Shown here: positions 3,033 through 11,187 of the stretch, one piece after another | Position numbering within the stretch: the first letter of the stretch is position 1 | Layout of the letters: the number at the start of each line of letters is the position of its first letter | Assembly (NCBI RefSeq): GCF_022701295.1 | Contig: NZ_CP033204.1 | Coordinates: 2,790,001 to 2,854,000, forward strand | Source: Sphingopyxis sp. YF1 | GTDB lineage: Bacteria; Pseudomonadota; Alphaproteobacteria; Sphingomonadales; Sphingomonadaceae | Direction of reading: 5' to 3' | Length of the DNA stretch: 64,000 bases | Position numbers and translations under genes: made by a program | Notes under the pieces: generated by a model | What the model saw: the letters and a program-made list of their open reading frames with translations, nothing else | The model's database searches: none | What the model was told of the DNA's origin: nothing

Positions 3033-3728
3033 CTAAATCGGACGGGCGAGCTGGCCGACGACGCGCGCCACCACCTCGTACTGATCCTCTTCGTGTCCGA
3101 GATCGCGGGACAGGACGGTGTGTTCGTCGCTGCCGTCGTCGCGCAGCGCAAAGCGCGCCATCACGATCCCGCCATTGACGCGGAAGAGATAGTAGGCACC
3201 GTGGACCATTCGCTCGCCCTTGCGGTGATCGCGACAGAATAAAGGCGTGCCGGTGTTGAGGGTCAGCGCATCATACGGCGCCGGCAGGCGACCGATCCAC
3301 AGGCCGGAATTTTCGCCCAGACTGGAGTAGAGCCAGTCGCGTCGGAACCTCGTCGACGAGATCGGGTCCATCTTTCCCAGTTCGTCGATTTCCAAGAGCG
3401 CATATTCGGGCACCTCGACCCAATCGGCGTCGTTCGCGTCGACCAGCGGGCGCGGTCCGGCGCTTTCGCGGCCATCGATCAAAAACTCGACCGAAGTTCC
3501 CAAGGCGCGAGCAATCAAAACCGCGTTGTCGGCGCGCGAAATGCCCTTTCTGACATAATCGCTGATCGTGCTCGTTGAAATTCCGGTTTTCTCGGACAGC
3601 CAGCCGTAATCCCGGCCGTCGAGCAACGACAAAATGCGCCTTCCAACCGAATTATCGGTTTGAGATGGTTGACGGCGTTTTTTCGGCTCGCTATCCGGGT
3701 TTTCGTTACGAACTTTCGGATTTGCCAT
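3033..3728 (-). CDS. Phage repressor, HTH plus degenerate S24-fold domain
   Basis: The 231-residue product has a basic N-terminus, a helix-turn-helix at about residues 28-85 (SEKTGISTSTISDYVRKG) and a C-terminal domain laid out like LexA/CI peptidases. Where active family members have GDSM, this protein has YDAL, and where they have the lysine in VKR it reads VMARF. Both residues of the Ser-Lys self-cleavage dyad therefore appear to be missing. It is transcribed leftward, divergent from the Ner-like gene with one base between the annotated starts, the standard genetic-switch layout. Its role as lysogeny repressor is inferred from position and fold. Induction probably does not use RecA-stimulated autocleavage. 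Confidence 0.85.
   Translation of the reverse strand: MANPKVRNENPDSEPKKRRQPSQTDNSVGRRILSLLDGRDYGWLSEKTGISTSTISDYVRKGISRADNAVLIARALGTSVEFLIDGRESAGPRPLVDANDADWVEVPEYALLEIDELGKMDPISSTRFRRDWLYSSLGENSGLWIGRLPAPYDALTLNTGTPLFCRDHRKGERMVHGAYYLFRVNGGIVMARFALRDDGSDEHTVLSRDLGHEEDQYEVVARVVGQLARPI
3645..3660. promoter_or_regulatory. Operator candidate in the repressor 5' region
   Basis: AACCGA-ATTA-TCGGTT is a perfect 6-bp inverted repeat with a 4-base AT spacer, inside the start of the repressor gene. The divergent switch has no free intergenic space, so regulator sites must lie within coding DNA, as this one does. No binding data exist; it is offered as a candidate only. Confidence 0.35.
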
Positions 3729-3729
3729 T

Positions 3730-3978
3730 ATGTCACTCGCTCAAATGCACAGGGAGGATGTTAAAGCCGCGCTTCGCAAGAAGTACGGCACCATCCGAAA
3801 ATTCGAAATTGCGCACGGGTTTTCGCCCGGCTCCGTCCACGACGTCCTCCGACACAGGAAATGGGCACGGGTGGAGCGGGCAATCGCGGCCGCCATCGAC
3901 GTTCCTTCGAGTCTATCCGAAAAAACGGATAGCACCGCCGAATCCTCGACGCAGCATCTAATTGCGGGAGCCCAATAG
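3730..3978 (+). CDS. ner: Ner-like DNA-binding regulator
   Basis: The 82-residue product contains MHREDVKAALRKKYGTIRKF followed by EIAHGFSPGSVHDVLRHRKW, the Ner/Nlp (SfsB-like) lambda-repressor fold that opens the early operon in Mu and represses both early and repressor promoters. The first ATG (3730) leaves only one base to the divergent repressor start, so the ATG at 3745 (MHREDV...) may be the true start; neither has a good Shine-Dalgarno. The C-terminal tail is longer than in Mu Ner. It is followed after 2 bases by the ParB-like gene. Confidence 0.85.
   Translation: MSLAQMHREDVKAALRKKYGTIRKFEIAHGFSPGSVHDVLRHRKWARVERAIAAAIDVPSSLSEKTDSTAESSTQHLIAGAQ
3913..3932. promoter_or_regulatory. Perfect inverted repeat CTATCCG-A6-CGGATAG in the ner gene
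   Basis: CTATCCG (3913-3919) and CGGATAG (3926-3932) flank exactly six A residues. Another CTATCCG occurs at 3691-3697, near the repressor start. No T-tract follows, so an operator is likelier than a terminator. The regulator that would bind it is unknown. Confidence 0.4.
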
Positions 3979-3980
3979 GT

Positions 3981-4982
3981 ATGGCTTCCCAGCATTCTGA
4001 AATCTTCCCGCTCGATCCGGCTGCGGTTGTCGTCGGTCCGCGTATCGGCCTGTTCTGGCCGGAAAAGGCTAGCGCGCTCGGCGCGCTGATGAAGCGTGAC
4101 GGGCAGAATGACCCGATCAAGGTCCAGCACAAGAAGGGCGAATGGTTGCTCGTCACGGGTCTGCACCGGCTGCGCGGGGCGATCGAAGCCGGGCTGGACA
4201 CGATCAAGGCGATCGAGGTCGAGGGCAGTTCCGCCGAGCTGGCGCTGATCGAGGCGAGCGAGAATATCCATCGCCGGGATTTTGGCCCGATCGAGCGCGC
4301 CCTGTTCATCCGCGAAATCGCCGAGCTAGCCGAGGAGCGTTGGTCGAAGGGTCATGAAAACCTGACCCCCCAGCAGATCGGCCAGATCAAGCGCTGGGAA
4401 CGCGAGCGCGAGAAGGCGCCGGGCGTTGTTCGCGCTGATGATGCCGCAGCGATGGAGGCGGAGTATAGTGCGGCAACAATTGCCGGACTATATGGATGGC
4501 AGGAAGAAGTTGCGGAATCACTCGGCCTTTCGCCGCGCACGATCCGCGATTCCCTGAAAATCCATCGCCAGCTGATCGCGCCTTTCGAGGCAGAGCTTTG
4601 GGAACTGCTCGCGCGTTCGCCCCTGGGCAAGAAGCGCGCGGCGCTGATGGAACTCGCCGACATCGCCGACGAGGAAACGCGCCGGTTGGTGATCGACACG
4701 ATCGTCGGCGATGACATGGGCGAGATCAAATCCGTCTCGGACGCGATGATCGCGGCGGGCGCGAAGGCGGCGGCGGGCAAGGTCCGCAAAGCCGGCGATA
4801 GCAAGTGGATGGATGGGGCCGGTACCAATCTCGATCGCCTGAGCGCATCGGGGTGGCGGCAGTTCGCCCCAACGCTGGTCGAGAAGATCAAGCCAAGCGC
4901 CCTCGTCACCATCCGCGACGCTGTCCTTGCGAGAATTGCCGCCGAGGGCGGCGTCGAAGCGATCGGAGCCGACGATGCCTGA
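3981..4982 (+). CDS. ParB/Spo0J N-terminal domain protein
   Basis: The 333-residue product has a ParB-type N-terminal domain: IKVQHKKGEWLLVTGLHRLR (GxHR box near residues 60-67) and ENIHRRDFGPIERALF (about 94-109). A ParB-like HTH follows (ESLGLSPRTIRDSLKIHRQL), then a helical C-terminal half. ParB proteins bind DNA and, in the chromosome-partition family, hydrolyse CTP. There is no ParA next to it, so segregation is unlikely; DNA binding, nuclease activity or early gene control in phage replication are the options. ParB-like proteins at this position recur in Mu-like phages of alphaproteobacteria. Confidence 0.85.
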   Translation: MASQHSEIFPLDPAAVVVGPRIGLFWPEKASALGALMKRDGQNDPIKVQHKKGEWLLVTGLHRLRGAIEAGLDTIKAIEVEGSSAELALIEASENIHRRDFGPIERALFIREIAELAEERWSKGHENLTPQQIGQIKRWEREREKAPGVVRADDAAAMEAEYSAATIAGLYGWQEEVAESLGLSPRTIRDSLKIHRQLIAPFEAELWELLARSPLGKKRAALMELADIADEETRRLVIDTIVGDDMGEIKSVSDAMIAAGAKAAAGKVRKAGDSKWMDGAGTNLDRLSASGWRQFAPTLVEKIKPSALVTIRDAVLARIAAEGGVEAIGADDA

Positions 4983-5301
4983 TCATTCCACATCGGTTTT
5001 CCTTGAGCGTATGCGCGTCGGGGTTTTGGGACTCTGGTTCGAAGCGCAGGCAGTCGATCGGCAGATGGAGGCCGCTCGCCGCGTTGGCGTGATCGCCCAT
5101 GCCGATGCGTTGCACTTGGCCGGGTTCTCGCGATGTCTCGCGGACACGGCGGCTGGATATGCTGCCGGGGTCGCGCCGCGAACCATCGACAAATGGCGCC
5201 GCCGCGTTCGCGGTGTGCGGCTGGATCGAGCCGAAGCTCTTTATCTGCTTTGTCCGCGGACCATGCGGACGCGATCCAAGCGGAAAGGGCGTCGAGCATG
5301 A
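4975..5301 (+). CDS. Small HTH-like hypothetical protein, 108 aa
   Basis: The ATG at 4975 overlaps the end of the ParB-like gene by 8 bases and begins MPDHSTSVFLERMRVGVLG. The middle reads AGYAAGVAPRTIDKWRRRVR, a plausible helix-turn-helix, and the C-terminus is strongly basic (RTRSKRKGRRA). It is probably a DNA-binding early protein, but no family was recognised. Its stop overlaps the start of the next gene (ATGA). Confidence 0.65.
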   Translation: MPDHSTSVFLERMRVGVLGLWFEAQAVDRQMEAARRVGVIAHADALHLAGFSRCLADTAAGYAAGVAPRTIDKWRRRVRGVRLDRAEALYLLCPRTMRTRSKRKGRRA

Positions 5302-5573: not shown

Positions 5574-5917
5574 GCAGCGAACTCAAAATCAATCCGAACT
5601 TCGTGCTCGCGCTGGACATTTTTGCGCGACCCGACCGGCGCCCGATCCTGATCGTTGTCGACAAGGAAACGGCTGATTATTCGGTCTACGAATTGAGCAC
5701 CGACACCATCGCCGACATCATCTCGGCGGTGGATCAGGAAATCGATGTCGCCCAGGAAATCCCGCGGGCGATCGAGACCGACAGCGCGATTTGCTTCTGC
5801 TCTTCCGAACTGCGGGCTTGGCTCGCCATGAAGGGTATCGAGCATCGCTTCCGTCCGCTGATGCCGATTGTCGAGGCGCTGATCCGTCAAAATGCACCCG
5901 ACTGGAACGCCCAGTGA
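5570..5917 (+). CDS. Hypothetical early protein, 115 aa
   Basis: A GTG at 5570 overlaps the previous TGA (GTGA). The protein begins with GTG-coded Met followed by SSELKINPNFVLALDIFARP and is acidic, with an alternating pattern suggesting a small alpha/beta fold (RPILIVVDKETADYSVYELS). No motif was recognised. It ends in a GTGA overlap with the methyltransferase gene, so the two are probably translationally coupled. Confidence 0.55.
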   Translation: MSSELKINPNFVLALDIFARPDRRPILIVVDKETADYSVYELSTDTIADIISAVDQEIDVAQEIPRAIETDSAICFCSSELRAWLAMKGIEHRFRPLMPIVEALIRQNAPDWNAQ

Positions 5918-6600
5918 GCGCGGCCGAACTGACCGCGCTCGCCGCCGACCGTCATCCCTGGGATTGGTATGTCGACGAGAGCTGGTGCACCGAGGCGCTG
6001 ATCGCGACGATCGGCTTCGACGCCTTCAAGGGGCAACTGATCCACGATCCGTGCTGCGGGCGCGGGACGATTCCGCAGGTGTTCGCGACATTCGGTTTCG
6101 AGGTCAGCGGCGGCGATGTCGAGGACCGGCGCGGTGCGTACGGCTTTCACGTCGACGACTGGGCGTTCGCGATCCGCGATTTTTACCTGTCGCCGCCGAA
6201 ACGGAGCGATAGGCCGACGTCGATCGCGTTCAATCCGCCCTATTCGACACAGGACGGGTGCGTCGTCACGGCGCTGTCGTCGATGATGGTCAGCCGGGCG
6301 CTGCGCGTCGCGACGCACAAGGTTTGCGCGCTGGTGCCCAGCAAATGGCTGCACAGCGATGAGCGGTACCGGCTGTTCGAGCGCAAGATGCCGTCGGACG
6401 TCATCCACCTGATGGAGCGGCCGTCGATGCCGCCGGGGCATTTGATCCCCGCGCTGGGCGACGACGCGTTCGGCAACGGCAAGGCTGATTATTCGTGGGT
6501 GATGTTCGACAATCGCGCCGTCACCGCGCCGGGCGAGACGCGGACTCATTTCGTGAAGCCGCGCGACGCGGTGTTCAAGGCAGCGGGGCGCGGGCGATGA
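5914..6600 (+). CDS. Early SAM-dependent methyltransferase with NPPY motif (probable adenine-N6 type)
   Basis: Starting at GTG 5914, the 228-residue product carries HDPCCGRGTIPQ (about residues 44-55), the SAM-binding motif I, and AFNPPYSTQDG (NPPY at 107-110), the catalytic motif IV of amino-methyltransferases acting on adenine N6. The order motif I then NPPY fits the gamma-class/N6A layout in compact form, without an obvious target-recognition domain. A role in modifying phage DNA against restriction early after infection is plausible; a protein or RNA target cannot be excluded. A second, Dam-type methylase lies at the right end of the prophage. Confidence 0.75.
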   Translation: MSAAELTALAADRHPWDWYVDESWCTEALIATIGFDAFKGQLIHDPCCGRGTIPQVFATFGFEVSGGDVEDRRGAYGFHVDDWAFAIRDFYLSPPKRSDRPTSIAFNPPYSTQDGCVVTALSSMMVSRALRVATHKVCALVPSKWLHSDERYRLFERKMPSDVIHLMERPSMPPGHLIPALGDDAFGNGKADYSWVMFDNRAVTAPGETRTHFVKPRDAVFKAAGRGR

Positions 6601-6852: not shown

Positions 6853-7548
6853 ATGAGCAATATTCGCCCGATTTCTGACCCCACCGTCGCGACCGCGATG
6901 GTTGCGACCTTCCGGTCGATCGAGCACCGCGACGCGTTGCTCGCCGCGATCGCGAAGGCAAACAAGGACCTTGGCGACCAGGTCGTGTTCATCGGCATGG
7001 ACGTGTCGACCAAGCCCGACATGTCGGTCGAGGTGCTTGCGCGCGGACGTCCCAACGGCGCGATCGAGATCGTCAAGATGCAGCCGCCGATCGATCCGGC
7101 CGACGTGCCGGCATGCATGCGGCCCGATTGCATGCCGCCCGCACCGCCTTCCGTTTCACGCCCGCCGATCATCAAGAGCCGCGCGGAGCGACTTCGGGTT
7201 GAACAAACAAACAGTGATGGCCGGCGTAGCGCAGCGGTAGCGCGCCCGTTGCAAGGGGCGGTTCGCCGCGATCGGGTCGCACCCGATCGTGCCCCGCGCA
7301 CGATGGAGGAGGTCGCGGGTTCGAATCCCGCCGCCGGCCAACCCCGCCGCCAGCCCGGCCGCAACTGGATCGAGCAGCGGCAGGCTCGGATCGACGGCGC
7401 GATCGCGTTCCTTCGCGATCGGGGTGTCGTGGTGTCGATCATGGACAGGCAGGCGCCGATCCGCACCTATTTCGTCTCGGCAAACCGCCGCTCGCTCTAT
7501 GCCGAAGAGCTGGTCGAGATGGCGATCGAATGGGGCTGGGTCGAATGA
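6853..7548 (+). CDS. Early hypothetical protein with tRNA-like sequence embedded in frame
   Basis: The ATG at 6853 (or GTG at 6850) opens a 231-codon frame. Residues 1-122 form one block (SIEHRDALLAAIAKANKDLG) with a Cys/Met/Pro-rich end. The next roughly 41 codons translate a tRNA-like sequence and give MEEVAGSNPAAGQ, a sequence typical of translated tRNA T-arms. The last 65 residues (RNWIEQRQARIDGAIAFLRD) form a separate small block ending EWGWVE. The frame is open throughout, so either the RNA element was inserted without breaking the gene, or two genes are separated by it, with an internal ATG at 7303 available. No protein family was recognised. Confidence 0.55.
   Translation: MSNIRPISDPTVATAMVATFRSIEHRDALLAAIAKANKDLGDQVVFIGMDVSTKPDMSVEVLARGRPNGAIEIVKMQPPIDPADVPACMRPDCMPPAPPSVSRPPIIKSRAERLRVEQTNSDGRRSAAVARPLQGAVRRDRVAPDRAPRTMEEVAGSNPAAGQPRRQPGRNWIEQRQARIDGAIAFLRDRGVVVSIMDRQAPIRTYFVSANRRSLYAEELVEMAIEWGWVE
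7219..7340 (+). tRNA. tRNA-like element with abnormal, expanded anticodon/variable region
   Basis: The acceptor strands GCCGGCG (7220-7226) and CGCCGGC (7332-7338) pair over 7 bp, or 8 bp if G7219-C7339 is added. Then come T8-A9, a perfect 4-bp D stem (GCGC/GCGC, 7229-7243, loop AGCGGTA), and a perfect 5-bp T arm GCGGG-TTCGAAT-CCCGC (7315-7331) with the canonical TTCGAAT loop. The anticodon region is odd: GCCC/GGGC pairs around an 8-base loop GTTGCAAG (GCA would read Cys). About 54 further bases then precede the T arm, including a 9-bp hairpin CGATCGGGT-CGC-ACCCGATCG (7269-7289). CCA is not encoded. It may be a decayed tRNA, a tRNA with an insertion, or a tRNA mimic. Anticodon identity is uncertain. 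Confidence 0.6.
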
Positions 7549-7751
7549 CGAAACGCTCCTTCCAGACCATGATGGACATCAACGCGCATTGCACGTTTTG
7601 CGATGCGCGGTGCGATGCTCGCAATGCGCAGGCTTGGGCACATCAGCACGCCAAGACCACGGGCCATGTCGTCTATTTCTCCCCGGTCTTTAAGGTCGAA
7701 TCGGCGCAGCGTCCCTTGTTCGCGTTCGAACCGGCGGTGCCCGTCCGGTGA
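7545..7751 (+). CDS. C2H2-type zinc-finger-like protein, 68 aa
   Basis: The ATG at 7545 overlaps the previous stop (ATGA). The sequence HCTFCDARCDARNAQAWAHQ continues with HAKTTGHVVYF, giving Cys-x2-Cys and His-x5-His pairs about 17 residues apart, the layout of a single C2H2 finger. It ends in a GTGA overlap with the next gene. It is probably a small nucleic-acid-binding early protein; partner and function are unknown. Confidence 0.6.
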   Translation: MTKRSFQTMMDINAHCTFCDARCDARNAQAWAHQHAKTTGHVVYFSPVFKVESAQRPLFAFEPAVPVR

Positions 7752-8215
7752 CCAAGCGCAGCCCCGCCTTCAGTTCCGACCAGCTGGCCTTCACGTTCGA
7801 GGTGCCGCAGCCGCAGCGCCACGAGGGCGCCTTGGCTGGGCTGTCGCGCGAGGTTTCGTCGGCGGTGGCGCGCATCCTGAAAGAGGATGGCCGCAGCCGC
7901 CCGGCGCTGGCGGCTGCGCTGTCCGAGCTGCTCGACGAAGAGATCGACAAGATGACGATTGACGGCTGGGCGAGCGAGGCGCGTGACCGGTTCAACATCT
8001 CATTCGCGCGCCTGCTCGCGCTCGTCCAGGTCACCGACCGCGTCGACGTGCTGGACGCGCTGCTCCGCCGGATCGGCGTGGCCGCGCTGTTCGGCGAGGA
8101 AATCATGACCGCGCAGCTGGGCCATCTCGATCGCCAGATCGCCGAGCTGAACGCCCGCAAGAAACAAATCCAGCAACGAGCCGTGCCGATCGGGCGCGCG
8201 ACGGGGGACGCATGA
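7748..8215 (+). CDS. Hypothetical protein directly upstream of the transposase, 155 aa
   Basis: GTG at 7748 is the start, overlapping the previous TGA. The product is helical (EVSSAVARILKEDGRSRPAL, then ALSELLDEEIDKMTIDGWAS) and ends in a coiled segment, ELNARKKQIQQRAV. It overlaps the transposase start by 4 bases, so it is probably co-translated with it. It resembles early regulators found before transposase genes in Mu-like phages, but no named family is claimed. Confidence 0.6.
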   Translation: MTKRSPAFSSDQLAFTFEVPQPQRHEGALAGLSREVSSAVARILKEDGRSRPALAAALSELLDEEIDKMTIDGWASEARDRFNISFARLLALVQVTDRVDVLDALLRRIGVAALFGEEIMTAQLGHLDRQIAELNARKKQIQQRAVPIGRATGDA

Positions 8216-10158
8216 AATTCACCGGAGGAAAATTCTGGTTCTCGGCCAGCGAGCTTGCCGAGTTGAAATTGCCCGGCCTGCCGTCGTCGAAGCGCAAGGT
8301 GAACGAGCGCGCGGACAAGGAATGCTGGGCGCTGAAAGTCGATGCCGACGGCATGCCGCTGGCGCGGCCGCGCAAGGCGGTCGGCGGAGGCCTTGAATAT
8401 CATGTGTCGATCCTGCCCGCGGCGACGCAGACGGCGCTGGTGCGGCGCGGCATTTCGGTCGCGTGCGAGCCGACCGAGGACGAAGCGCTGCGTCAGGGCA
8501 CGGCATGGAGTTGGTACGAGGCGCAGTCCGGCAAGGTGAAGGCGGAGGCCGAGCGCCGCAACGCAATCCTGACGCAGGTCGAGGCGCTGATCGAGGGCGG
8601 CATCCCGGTCAGCAACGCGGTGGCGGCGGTGGCGATCGGCGAGAAGGTCGGCGGGTCGACGCTGCACGAATGGCGCGCGATGGTCAAAGGCGTGCCCGGC
8701 GCCGACTGGCTGCCGCATCTTGCCCCGCGCCGGAAGGGCGGCGGTCGGCAGGTCGATATCGACCCCGAGCTTTGGCAGGTGCTGATTTCCGATTATCTGC
8801 GTCCCGAACGCCCGACCTTCTCGTCCTGCTATTGGCGGGCCAGCCAGATCGGCGAGGCGAAGGGCCTCTCATTGCCGTCTGAGAAGACGTTGAAGCGCCG
8901 CTTCGACGCCGAGATCGACAAGCGCCTCGTCACCGCCAAGCGCCATGGGAAGGATGCGCTGCGCCAGATGCTGCCGCCGCAGCGCCGGTCGGTCGCACAC
9001 CTGCACGCGATGGAAGCGGTCGATATCGACGGGCACAAGTTCGACGTCTGGGTCCACCGCAAGGGCGCGAAGCCGAACGACAAGCCGATCCGCCCGACAA
9101 TGATCGCGATTCAGGACCTGCACAGCCGCAAGATGCTGGCGTGGCGGCTGGGCGAGAGCGAAAGTGCGTTGCTTACCCGCCTGACCTTTGCCGACCTGTT
9201 CCGCGATTATGGTATTCCGAAGCGCTGCACGAGCGACAATGGTCGCGCGTTCGCGTCGAAGGAAATCACCGGCGGCGCCGAGACGCGCAATCGCTTCACG
9301 ATCCGCGCCGACGATCCGACAGGGCTGCTGACCGCGCTGGGGATCAAGACCGACTGGGCGTTGCCCTATCGCGGTCAGTCCAAGCCGATCGAGCGCTTCT
9401 TCCGTGACGTCGCCGACTATATCTCGCGTCACCCGGCCTGCTCGGGGGCGTGGACGGGCAACCGGATCGACAACAAGCCCGATTACAAGCCCGACGCGAT
9501 CGAATGGGACACGTTCGTCCAGATCGTGAATGCCGGGGTGAAGGCGCTCAATGCCAAGCTGGGCCGCCGGACCGAGATGGCGAACGGGCGCAGCTTCGAC
9601 CAGGCGTTCAACGCCAGCTATGCGACGGCGCCGATCGGCAAGGCGACCGAAGAACAGATGCGGCTCGCGCTGCTGACTGCCGACCGCGTGACGACCGACC
9701 GCAAAAGCGGCGAGATCAAGCTGGCGAAAAATCGCTATTGGTCGCCCGAGCTGATGCAGATCGCGGGCCAGAAGGTGACGATCCGCTTCGACCCCGACCA
9801 GCTGCACGGTGATATCCATGTCTATGACCCGACGGGCCGCTTTCTCGTCACCGCGCAGCTGATCGAGGACAGTGGATTTCACAGTCTGGAAGCCGCGCGC
9901 GCGCGGGCCAAGCTGGAACGCGACCATCGCAAGGCGACCCGCGAGCTGGAAGAGCGCGAGCAGTTGCTCGTCGCCTCGTCGATCGCGGCGATGCTGCCCG
10001 ACACGGCCGAACCCGAATTGCCCGAGCCCGAGGTTATCCGGGTGGTGCGTCCGCGCCATCGCAACGGGTCCGCGGCCGTTGCCGTGCAGGCCGAACAGAC
10101 CCCGAATTTCATGAACCGTTTTGGTGCCGCCGTCGCGCAGTTCCGGGTGGTCGAATGA
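8212..10158 (+). CDS. MuA-type DDE transposase
   Basis: The 648-residue protein (Mu A is 663) begins with a Mu-type N-terminal DNA-binding domain (FWFSASELAELKLPGLPSSK). Its RNase H-like catalytic core shows Asp273 in VDIDGHKFDVWV, Asp342 in CTSDNGRAFASKE and Glu394 in YRGQSKPIERFF. These sit almost exactly where Mu A has D269, D336 and E392. A Mu-transposase C-terminal barrel follows (RYWSPELMQIAGQKVTIRFD), then a charged helical tail that in Mu contacts the B protein and ClpX. It cuts and joins the TG...CA ends during integration and replicative transposition. The start ATG overlaps the upstream gene. Confidence 0.97.
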   Translation: MKFTGGKFWFSASELAELKLPGLPSSKRKVNERADKECWALKVDADGMPLARPRKAVGGGLEYHVSILPAATQTALVRRGISVACEPTEDEALRQGTAWSWYEAQSGKVKAEAERRNAILTQVEALIEGGIPVSNAVAAVAIGEKVGGSTLHEWRAMVKGVPGADWLPHLAPRRKGGGRQVDIDPELWQVLISDYLRPERPTFSSCYWRASQIGEAKGLSLPSEKTLKRRFDAEIDKRLVTAKRHGKDALRQMLPPQRRSVAHLHAMEAVDIDGHKFDVWVHRKGAKPNDKPIRPTMIAIQDLHSRKMLAWRLGESESALLTRLTFADLFRDYGIPKRCTSDNGRAFASKEITGGAETRNRFTIRADDPTGLLTALGIKTDWALPYRGQSKPIERFFRDVADYISRHPACSGAWTGNRIDNKPDYKPDAIEWDTFVQIVNAGVKALNAKLGRRTEMANGRSFDQAFNASYATAPIGKATEEQMRLALLTADRVTTDRKSGEIKLAKNRYWSPELMQIAGQKVTIRFDPDQLHGDIHVYDPTGRFLVTAQLIEDSGFHSLEAARARAKLERDHRKATRELEEREQLLVASSIAAMLPDTAEPELPEPEVIRVVRPRHRNGSAAVAVQAEQTPNFMNRFGAAVAQFRVVE

Positions 10159-10192: not shown

Positions 10193-10227
10193 GGCAATGT
10201 CCCGTGAAAGACAAAGGAAAGCGTAGC

Positions 10228-11187
10228 ATGAACAATCCCGAAAATCAGCCCGTCGATATCGAAGACCAGCGCGCTTGGCTGATCGATCATAAGGCGGCCA
10301 CCGGCATGAGCTGGTCGGACTTGGAAAAGCGCATCGGTCGCGCCGCCGGGACGCTCAGCCAGTTCGCCAGCGCCAAGGGCTATGCCGGCGACGAGAAGGG
10401 CGTTGCCGAACAGGTCTATCGTTATCAGCAGCAGCTGCTCAGCCAGAAGGCGTTTGCCGTGACGGCGCCCGAGCTGCCGACCTTCTTCGCGGGGCCGACC
10501 GCTAGCGAAGTCATCCAAATCCTGACCTATGGTCAGCGCGGTCGCATTGTCGTGATCGCTACCGGCGCCGGCATGGGCAAGACCAAGGCGATCGACCATT
10601 ATCGCGCCAGCGTGTCGAACGTCTGGAAAGCGACGATCCGCCCGTCGTCGTCGGGTGTCATGAACATGCTGCTCGCGGTGCTCGCCGCGCTGGGCGAGCG
10701 CGACATCACCGGACCGCCGAACAAGCTCAGTCAGCTGATCATCGACAAGGTTCGTAACAGTGGCGGGCTGATCGTCATCGACGAAGCTCAACATCTGTCG
10801 GAAAAATCGCTCGAAGAGCTGCGCAGCCTGCACGATGAGACCGGCGTCGGCATCGCGCTCGTCGGCAATATTTCGGTGCTATCGCGGCTCGAAGGCGGCA
10901 CCCGCAAGGCGAATTTCGCGCAGCTGTTCAGTCGGGTCGGCATGCGCATGGTCCGCGCCCAGCCTCTGCAAGGCGACGCCGACGCGCTTTGCGATGCGTG
11001 GAACATCGGCGACGCGAAGATCATCACCGCAGTGCGCGAAATCTGCCAGAAGCCGGGCGCGCTGCGCGGCGCGACGATGACGCTTGAGCTGGCGCACATG
11101 ATCGCGGCGAGCGAGGGCCAGACGGTCAACGCCGGTCACGTCCGCGATTGTTGGGCGCAGCTCTCGACCCGGCAGATCGCGGCGTGA
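10228..11187 (+). CDS. MuB-type AAA+ ATPase, transposition target selector
   Basis: The ATG at 10228 (MNNPENQ...) has a GGAAAG ribosome-binding site; an upstream GTG at 10204 is less likely. The 319-residue product has an N-terminal HTH (WSDLEKRIGRAAGTLSQFAS) as in Mu B. Walker A is GAGMGKT (113-119) and Walker B is LIVIDEAQ (Asp185-Glu186). AAA_22-type sequence follows, with a C-terminal DNA-binding helical part. In Mu, B forms ATP-dependent filaments on target DNA, stimulates A and gives target immunity. It is the only gene in the early run separated from its neighbour by a hairpin. Confidence 0.95.
   Translation: MNNPENQPVDIEDQRAWLIDHKAATGMSWSDLEKRIGRAAGTLSQFASAKGYAGDEKGVAEQVYRYQQQLLSQKAFAVTAPELPTFFAGPTASEVIQILTYGQRGRIVVIATGAGMGKTKAIDHYRASVSNVWKATIRPSSSGVMNMLLAVLAALGERDITGPPNKLSQLIIDKVRNSGGLIVIDEAQHLSEKSLEELRSLHDETGVGIALVGNISVLSRLEGGTRKANFAQLFSRVGMRMVRAQPLQGDADALCDAWNIGDAKIITAVREICQKPGALRGATMTLELAHMIAASEGQTVNAGHVRDCWAQLSTRQIAA

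Follow-up and report, generated by a model that had tools for sequence, protein, structure and literature searches.

RNase P is described as measuring the stack formed by the T stem and the acceptor together with the elbow of its substrate (PMC4919913), and according to section 4.3 of the same article any RNA with a T-stem-acceptor structure is recognized and cleaved by the enzyme. tRNA-like RNase P substrates are already known in non-coding RNAs and in some mRNAs, and many, but not all, of the non-tRNA substrates have been proposed to resemble tRNA (PMC4919922). Phage RNAs processed by RNase P are also on record (PMC4919922, PMC5320573). The C4 antisense RNA of P1/P7 and its Acinetobacter relatives (PMC5320573) is the nearest phage precedent for the element described here, and the allo-tRNA-UAU pseudogene of Edaphobacter C40 (PMC7609411) is the nearest precedent for a tRNA-like sequence that overlaps an open reading frame (ORF) of a mobile element. 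Here we report a 121-nt tRNA-like element on the plus strand at positions 7219..7339 of the window, the whole stretch of 64,000 nucleotides of Sphingopyxis sp. YF1 that was analyzed. Our best explanation, held with middling confidence, is a pre-tRNA-like mimic of the elbow and acceptor in the early-operon mRNA of sphingomonad Mu-like phages, which would invite RNase P-type cutting, the cleavage itself being putative. We regard it as a new RNA family that belongs to a known kind, the tRNA-like processing substrates, but occupies an unusual location; the mimic seems to be retained within an ORF, whichever frame reads it. A published account of such an element was not found in our literature search, which is not proof of absence, and the parts examined of an article on the Mu-like prophages of Citromicrobium (PMC12486242) describe no such element.

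The host genome is a single contig of 4,367,405 bases, and PHROG matches identify a Mu-like prophage in the window. A divergent repressor gene on the minus strand (3033..3728; PHROG transcriptional repressor, 1.9e-9) is followed by PHROG matches to a small repressor-like protein (3730-3978), a ParB-like protein (3981-4982) and a methyltransferase (5914-6600). The early gene with the element (6850/6853-7548, plus strand), delimited by the ORF list and its homologues, lies between the methyltransferase gene and a regulator gene (7748-8215, PHROG match). Downstream of the element, the same early operon carries the gene of the MuA-type transposase (8212..10158, plus strand; PHROG transposase, 1.3e-147), and the MuB-type transposition protein is encoded at 10204..11187 (plus strand; PHROG DNA transposition protein, 2.1e-55). 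MuA is 873 nt downstream of the element in the window, and in five loci the distance from the element to the transposase start or match is 703-1206 nt. The protein that hosts the element consists of a MarR-like N-terminal region in relatives, which is shortened in the window's own protein, a disordered linker and a conserved C-terminal domain. The relative P0003 matches Pfam MarR_2 with 4.3e-5 and 24 bits, under the cut-off of 27. In its AlphaFold2 model, with a mean pLDDT of 62.6, the N-terminal helical part (residues ~31-100) and the C-terminal domain (281-338) are confident, while the element residues (~222-264) mostly have a pLDDT < 50; the top Foldseek matches of the model are MarR-family regulators, none of them at E <= 0.001. 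The low-confidence linker in this model suggests that the element is placed where the protein would tolerate an insertion.

Four further phages carry the element in the same gene, and their elements align with that of the window without gaps. Together with the window, these four loci, L016 (Sphingopyxis sp. GW247-27LB), L017 (Sphingopyxis sp. H073) and the viral contigs L019 and L021, are referred to as group A. The element starts with the 5' strand of the acceptor stem, GGCCGGCG (7219..7226), which pairs with the 3' strand CGCCGGCC (7332-7339) as 8 bp or as 7 bp plus a G-1:C73 pair. It continues with a D arm, GCGC-AGCGGTA-GCGC (7229..7243), which has a G18G19-type GG in its loop, a 66-nt arm that replaces the anticodon arm (7245..7310; 7246-7248 with 7304-7306 and 7250-7252 with 7298-7300) and encloses an inner hairpin of 7-9 bp, CGAUCGG(GUCGCAC)CCGAUCG (7269..7289), and a T arm, GCGGG-UUCGAAU-CCCGC (7315..7331), all on the plus strand. 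The acceptor 3' strand is followed by AACC (7332..7343, plus strand) without CCA, whereas CCA is encoded by 44/44 host tRNAs. The ORF is open throughout, with MEEVAGSNPAAGQ as the in-frame peptide across the element. Directly upstream is an A-rich leader (7195..7218, plus strand), for which AT is 0.58-0.71 vs 0.32-0.34 locally in all five group-A loci and whose last base (-1) is U in each of them. A Shine-Dalgarno-like AGGAGGU is invariant in the five group-A elements and absent from the divergent copy at L084 described below; in the window, AGGAGGTC (7307-7314, in the variable loop of the element) is a perfect Shine-Dalgarno without a start codon at the usual distance.

Measured against a canonical tRNA, the acceptor, D and T arms are present with the T-loop UUCRA and the D-loop GG, and a 5-bp anticodon stem with a 7-base loop is absent, the best substitute being a 3-bp stem with an 8-base loop. 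This CCC/GGG stem (7245-7247 with 7256-7258) leaves an 8-base loop, of which bases 7250-7252 covary with 7298-7300; because of this covariation, either the anticodon arm is replaced by the long arm or its loop is held in a pseudoknot. The energies of the extended arm predicted by RNAalifold and of the local CCC/GGG hairpin with a downstream-pairing loop are close, the extended arm being slightly better in the window and L016 and the local hairpin in L017, L019 and L021. The D stem has a probability of 0.00-0.02 in the thermodynamic model alone. The initial annotation had noticed an acceptor of 7-8 bp, a 4-bp D stem and a perfect TTCGAAT T arm in an open frame, a hairpin before the T arm and the lack of an encoded CCA, and all of these are borne out by the element at 7219-7339. 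The 8-base anticodon loop that it also described does exist in the sequence, but three of its bases covary with a downstream triplet. We claim no decoding identity, UGC or GCA, for the possible loop of the window, since these three bases differ among the members and covary with the downstream triplet.

We searched the whole window on both strands with all Rfam families. The tRNA model (RF00005) matched at 7220-7339 with 40.0 bits (cut-off 29, E 5.8e-5) and was the sole family over its cut-off; of the 45 matches to the tRNA model across the host genome, the element scores lowest. L017, L019 and L021 scored 48.2, 44.4 and 40.5 bits, respectively, and L016 fell under the cut-off. Our own covariance model scored the window at 141 bits, with the window among its training sequences. 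ARAGORN reported no tRNA in the window, nor in 6 and in 60 related loci; for tmRNA, there was no match over the cut-off in the window with the Rfam models and none with ARAGORN. The Rfam C4 antisense RNA model also gave no match over the cut-off in the window and none at E <= 1 in 7100-7450. When the same peptide was redrawn with synonymous codons, all 17 cloverleaf pairs arose in 27/20000 redraws and all 11 tRNA-typical bases in 31/20000, but the pairs and the bases arose together in 0/20000. The folding energy of the element is unremarkable (z -1.44, with 17/200 shuffles equally good), and in a folding-energy scan of the six genes that bear it, the element never ranked within the top three windows; folding energy does not discriminate and was dropped as evidence. 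A cloverleaf pattern of our own, with 8 matches on the plus strand and 6 on the minus strand vs 4 in a shuffle, was likewise not used as evidence.

The group-A alignment allowed us to examine covariation. All 33 chosen pairs, of which the arm pairs were picked after seeing the alignment as pairing in all five sequences, form in 5/5 sequences; these include the 5 pairs of the T arm and 7 pairs of the inner hairpin, two of the latter with one-sided G-U changes, and the acceptor/T lengths are 8/5 or 7/5 in every member. Five pairs show changes on both sides, namely a single pair each in the acceptor and the T stem and three in the middle arm, where columns 32-34 with 80-82 read TGC/GCA, TCG/CGA, TCC/GGA or CCC/GGG. 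The D-arm pairs are invariant in 5/5 and therefore provide no covariation for this arm. The covariation score was 0.170 vs 0.082 in shuffles and was reached in 0/500 of them; the number of pairs changed on both sides was matched in 1/500 and that of further pair types in 14/500. RNAalifold, which was not given the arm pairs, predicted this arm as well; 6 of its 39 pairs are compensated, and it drew the D stem differently. Synonymous resampling yielded a mean of 22.95-24.31 pairs vs the 33 observed, with 0/5000 resamples as good for each of the five sequences. The variable columns of the element are spread over codon positions 1/2/3 as 12/11/14, and the pairwise differences as 50/58/78 in the element (5 sequences), 75/45/175 in the N-terminal part (4 sequences) and 90/75/175 in the C-terminal part (4 sequences), indicating that the peptide constrains less within the element than in the flanking domains. 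What is observed directly is the conservation of an acceptor, a D arm and a T arm like those of a tRNA, together with compensatory changes and the absence of an encoded CCA, and the covarying stems in relatives agree with the earlier proposal of a tRNA mimic inside an early mRNA.

Given that the element lies within an ORF, we compared protein relatives. A profile search, in which the best 8000 candidates by shared words were scored, gave 35 proteins, one of which is P0001, the cluster of the window itself; searching with the L084 protein added P0036 (the L084 protein itself) and P0037, for a total of 37. Each was compared with the translations of both element halves, against 200 shuffles of its own. 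Both halves are found in 22/35 proteins. The T arm is read as VAGSNPAPGQ-like in 18 of them (P0001-P0013, P0015, P0016 and P0025-P0027) and as SQVRILPPAN-like, in a frame that we call frame B, in the other 4 (P0017, P0019, P0020 and P0024). AGSNPAPGQ and QVRILPPAN are two frames of a single nucleotide string, GGTCGCAGGTTCGAATCCTGCCCCCGGCCAACC, frame B being deduced from the protein; the DNA of the four frame-B members is predicted to contain GCAGGTTCGAATCCTGCCCCCGGCCAACC or a paired variant. In the 22 proteins the 3' half matches at 8 to 10 of 10 residues and the 5' half at 7 to 10, with shuffle maxima of 5 to 7 for each half (across all 37 proteins for the 3' half); the weakest 5' halves are those of P0011, P0017 and P0025 (7 vs 6). 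P0037, which is of the L084 type, matches at 6/10 vs a control of 6, which is not above it, and has AGSNP in a similar setting. In all four frame-B proteins the C-terminal domain resumes its own frame directly after the element, and P0029 ends with ...MAGVAQW, as expected if a stop codon lies within the D arm. A search with P0019 for frame-B DNA found none in phage records or 328 family genomes.

Because the nucleotides are conserved while the frame of the 3' half differs between relatives, the RNA itself, rather than the peptide, seems to be under selection, a reading drawn from sequence comparison. The initial annotation had named a conserved peptide with lost pairing as the refuting outcome among homologues; we found the reverse, the nucleotides being kept in a differing 3'-half frame, the second of which was read back from protein. 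This result suggests that hidden RNA genes can be spotted through proteins with GSNPA or VRILPPA peptides. The element is absent in 12/35 proteins (P0014, P0018, P0021-P0023, P0028 and P0030-P0035), among which P0014 may simply be a sequence that ends early, and phages can therefore do without it. Five proteins (P0012, P0013, P0025, P0027 and P0028) have a different C-terminal module, LTPELVTSLRAAIPPR...HHPERCG-like, instead of the common one; in P0028 the element preceding it is not recognizable.

To look further afield, we drew Mu-like loci by transposase similarity, first 85 sources and then 75 of 78 new loci, three that repeat group-A contigs being excluded. Among these Mu-like loci, matches to our RNA model at E <= 0.01 were limited to group A and L084, with L177 being the L084 contig again. 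L084 carries a divergent element at 5106-5233 (38.9 bits, E 0.0014) in a gene that shares the C-terminal domain and has a different N-terminus. Its lowest-energy fold has a 6-bp acceptor, a D arm, a T arm and three hairpins between them, the T stem having a mean pair probability of only 0.33, and its leader is not AT-rich (AT 0.46). The 3' end, CCGGCCAACC, is identical in L084 and all five group-A sequences, but is read in another frame in L084.

Between the constant arms the element varies. The gap from D stem to T stem is 71 nt in the window and 74 nt in the L084 fold, and the proteins P0011 and P0025 imply about 17 nt. Whole-element sizes calculated from residue distances, with the 121 nt of the window as yardstick, are about 67, 111, 112, 121 or 123 nt. 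The acceptor, elbow and T arm are constant across relatives, and hand decoding showed that the P0019 protein also permits a D stem of GCUC/GAGC instead of GCGC/GCGC. Judging from protein sequences, the element is probably conserved in a second frame, and two members have probably lost most of the anticodon region.

Searches beyond these loci returned little. Phage and plasmid records gave no tblastn match, and a DNA pattern for the 3' half occurred in 1/396 genomes of the order, the window's own. In the genus, the protein profile matched 4/80 genomes, namely the genome of the window, two with full relatives and one with a match of 19 bits. The RNA model matched 178/397 family genomes, and among the matches listed all but the own element are 73-83 nt long, as ordinary host tRNAs are. 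We rejected an origin from a single host tRNA, as there was no close match among five elements x 44 host tRNAs (best, 45/56 core positions); the highest-scoring host tRNAs are those for Gly and Pro.

Sister loci without the mimic (L018, L024/L037, L035 and L057) have two consecutive hairpins in the corresponding linker, of which the second is near-perfect, with ~11-14 bp, and reads GGCGCGGUCGGCUC...GAGCCGACCGCGCC in L018, L024 and L057. In L018 (z -4.3) and L057 (z -2.8), this double-hairpin element (L018 ~8171-8260, L024 ~2490-2580, L035 ~5133-5220, L057 ~3525-3615) coincides in part with the gene's most stable windows, while in L035 the top three lie elsewhere; the values for L037, computed in a wrong reading frame, are disregarded. 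The element has no Rfam match at E <= 0.5. A nested overlapping open frame of about 75-100 residues, with the core LAAxMTGLxxPGP...SETPxRP, is conserved in the linker of the same gene, starting in the second frame at L018 8191, L024 2613, L035 5207 and L057 3545. In addition, L018, a Blastomonas locus, shows at 2169-2371 a sub-threshold match to the Caulobacter sRNA CC2171 (35.2 bits, cut-off 75).

A processing site in the early mRNA is favored because RNase P gauges its substrates by the very part that is constant in the element, decoding would require constancy of the part that varies, and an A-rich leader precedes the element in group A. A T-stem-loop stacked on the acceptor, as in non-tRNA substrates of RNase P, is present, and the composition of the 5' leader suggests that it is single-stranded. 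Cleavage of another substrate required an encoded RCCA end (PMC12710915); the element has none, which counts against the processing reading. In the proposed mechanism, the module would fold when the mRNA is free of ribosomes and present the acceptor-T stack and elbow behind the A-rich leader to RNase P, which would cut the 5' end; the 3' end would perhaps be trimmed by tRNase Z or exonucleases. Such a cut would detach the early genes that lie upstream from those of the regulator, MuA and MuB, keep down the amount of full-length host protein and free a small tRNA-like RNA. Passage of a ribosome would unfold the module, so that cutting would be coupled to translation. A more specific version, which we offer tentatively, is a translation-gated self-destruct and release site: the translated gene would yield a DNA-binding regulator, and the unread gene would be cut by host tRNA enzymes with release of a tRNA-shaped RNA, the same nucleotides serving both as RNA and, in two frames, as an inert linker peptide. 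Sister phages may use the unrelated double hairpin likewise, a shared end that is speculation. If the element is processed, the phage would switch its early operon via tRNA maturation enzymes, and the relatives would provide a natural series (about 67 to 123 nt, with or without the long arm) for probing RNase P requirements.

It is also conceivable, but unlikely in our estimate, that the released tRNA-like RNA works in trans, for example in immunity or as an antisense RNA like P1/P7 C4, with a constant processing chassis and a variable specificity arm. The constancy of the acceptor/D/T part next to a strongly variable arm would fit, and C4 RNA, like the element, starts with GG, where RNase P cuts it, and has variable target loops (PMC5320573). 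However, when two arm pieces from each of the five phages were searched for duplexes against up to 4.5 kb on each side, the phage's own region gave the lowest duplex energy in 1/10 rows where 2 are expected; moreover, the five DNA sequences hardly differ in the inner hairpin, and Rfam C4 is not matched. To our knowledge, C4 RNA has no D or T arms.

The insertion scar of the initial annotation, a tRNA-gene relic in the linker that is now a mere stretch of protein, is improbable. A linker of low model confidence that tolerates insertion and 12/35 proteins that lack the element are compatible with it, but the compensatory substitutions change amino acids, and the conservation is independent of frame with a near-even codon-position spread. 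Integration favors tRNA 3' ends, which raises the question of a DNA-level role as a decoy attachment site or a recombination boundary that resembles a host tRNA 3' end, and different C-terminal modules do follow the element in P0012, P0013, P0025 and P0027. We see little probability in this, as the 5' half (acceptor strand and D arm) is kept as well, the covarying arm pairs have no obvious use at the DNA level and no host tRNA is a close match. Very improbable, too, is a stable fold in the linker that makes ribosomes pause or shift frame: strong stems in coding sequence and the perfect AGGAGGU of all five group-A elements would suit it, but it has no need of tRNA-typical loop bases, the energy is not exceptional and L084 lacks the AGGAGGU. 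Finally, an unusual aminoacylated or decoding tRNA, such as an allo-tRNA or the odd suppressor once suggested, is scarcely credible despite the 8-bp acceptor, the long extra region and the reported allo-tRNA-like sequences overlapping a transposon-related ORF (PMC7609411), because there is no constant anticodon loop, the region in its place being reduced to about 17 nt in P0011/P0025 and forming a long arm elsewhere, or three hairpins in the L084 fold, and because CCA is missing and the acceptor-T lengths are 8/5, not 8/4 or 9/3.

The putative processing site can be set beside several described systems. C4 RNA shares with it a GG start and a constant fold with variable loops, and would also share the origin as a small RNA cut by RNase P from a larger phage transcript (PMC5320573), but C4 is about 77 nt long with three stem-loops (PMC5320573), and the element sits in a translated gene. 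The Edaphobacter C40 pseudogene is likewise an irregular tRNA-like sequence on a transposon-related ORF with a possible G-1 pair, and was not usable for translation in E. coli (PMC7609411). Allo-tRNAs have an acceptor domain of 12 bp, 8/4 or 9/3 (PMC7609411), which the 8/5 or 7/5 of the element does not match; the allo-tRNA-UAU pseudogene has several base-pair disruptions (PMC7609411), whereas the stems of the element are fully paired, and section 7 of PMC7609411 does not mention conservation across reading frames for such pseudogenes. MALAT1 mascRNA, MEN-beta menRNA and plant mitochondrial t-elements are tRNA-like parts of longer transcripts cut by RNase P or PRORP, the first two also by RNase Z (PMC4919922). 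These RNAs, which may function in a similar way, are eukaryotic, the first two being located in long non-coding RNAs, in contrast to an element in the ORF of a phage mRNA whose cleavage is putative. Bacterial tRNA-Sec, which has an extended D stem and a UCA anticodon, shares the 8-bp acceptor and 5-bp T stem with the element, which differs in its 4-bp D stem and the lack of a UCA anticodon loop or arm. Among bacterial RNase P substrates, mRNAs, the lac operon and riboswitches are examples of non-tRNA transcripts cut by a tRNA enzyme (PMC4919922), a group in which the phage element would take its place through its putative cleavage.
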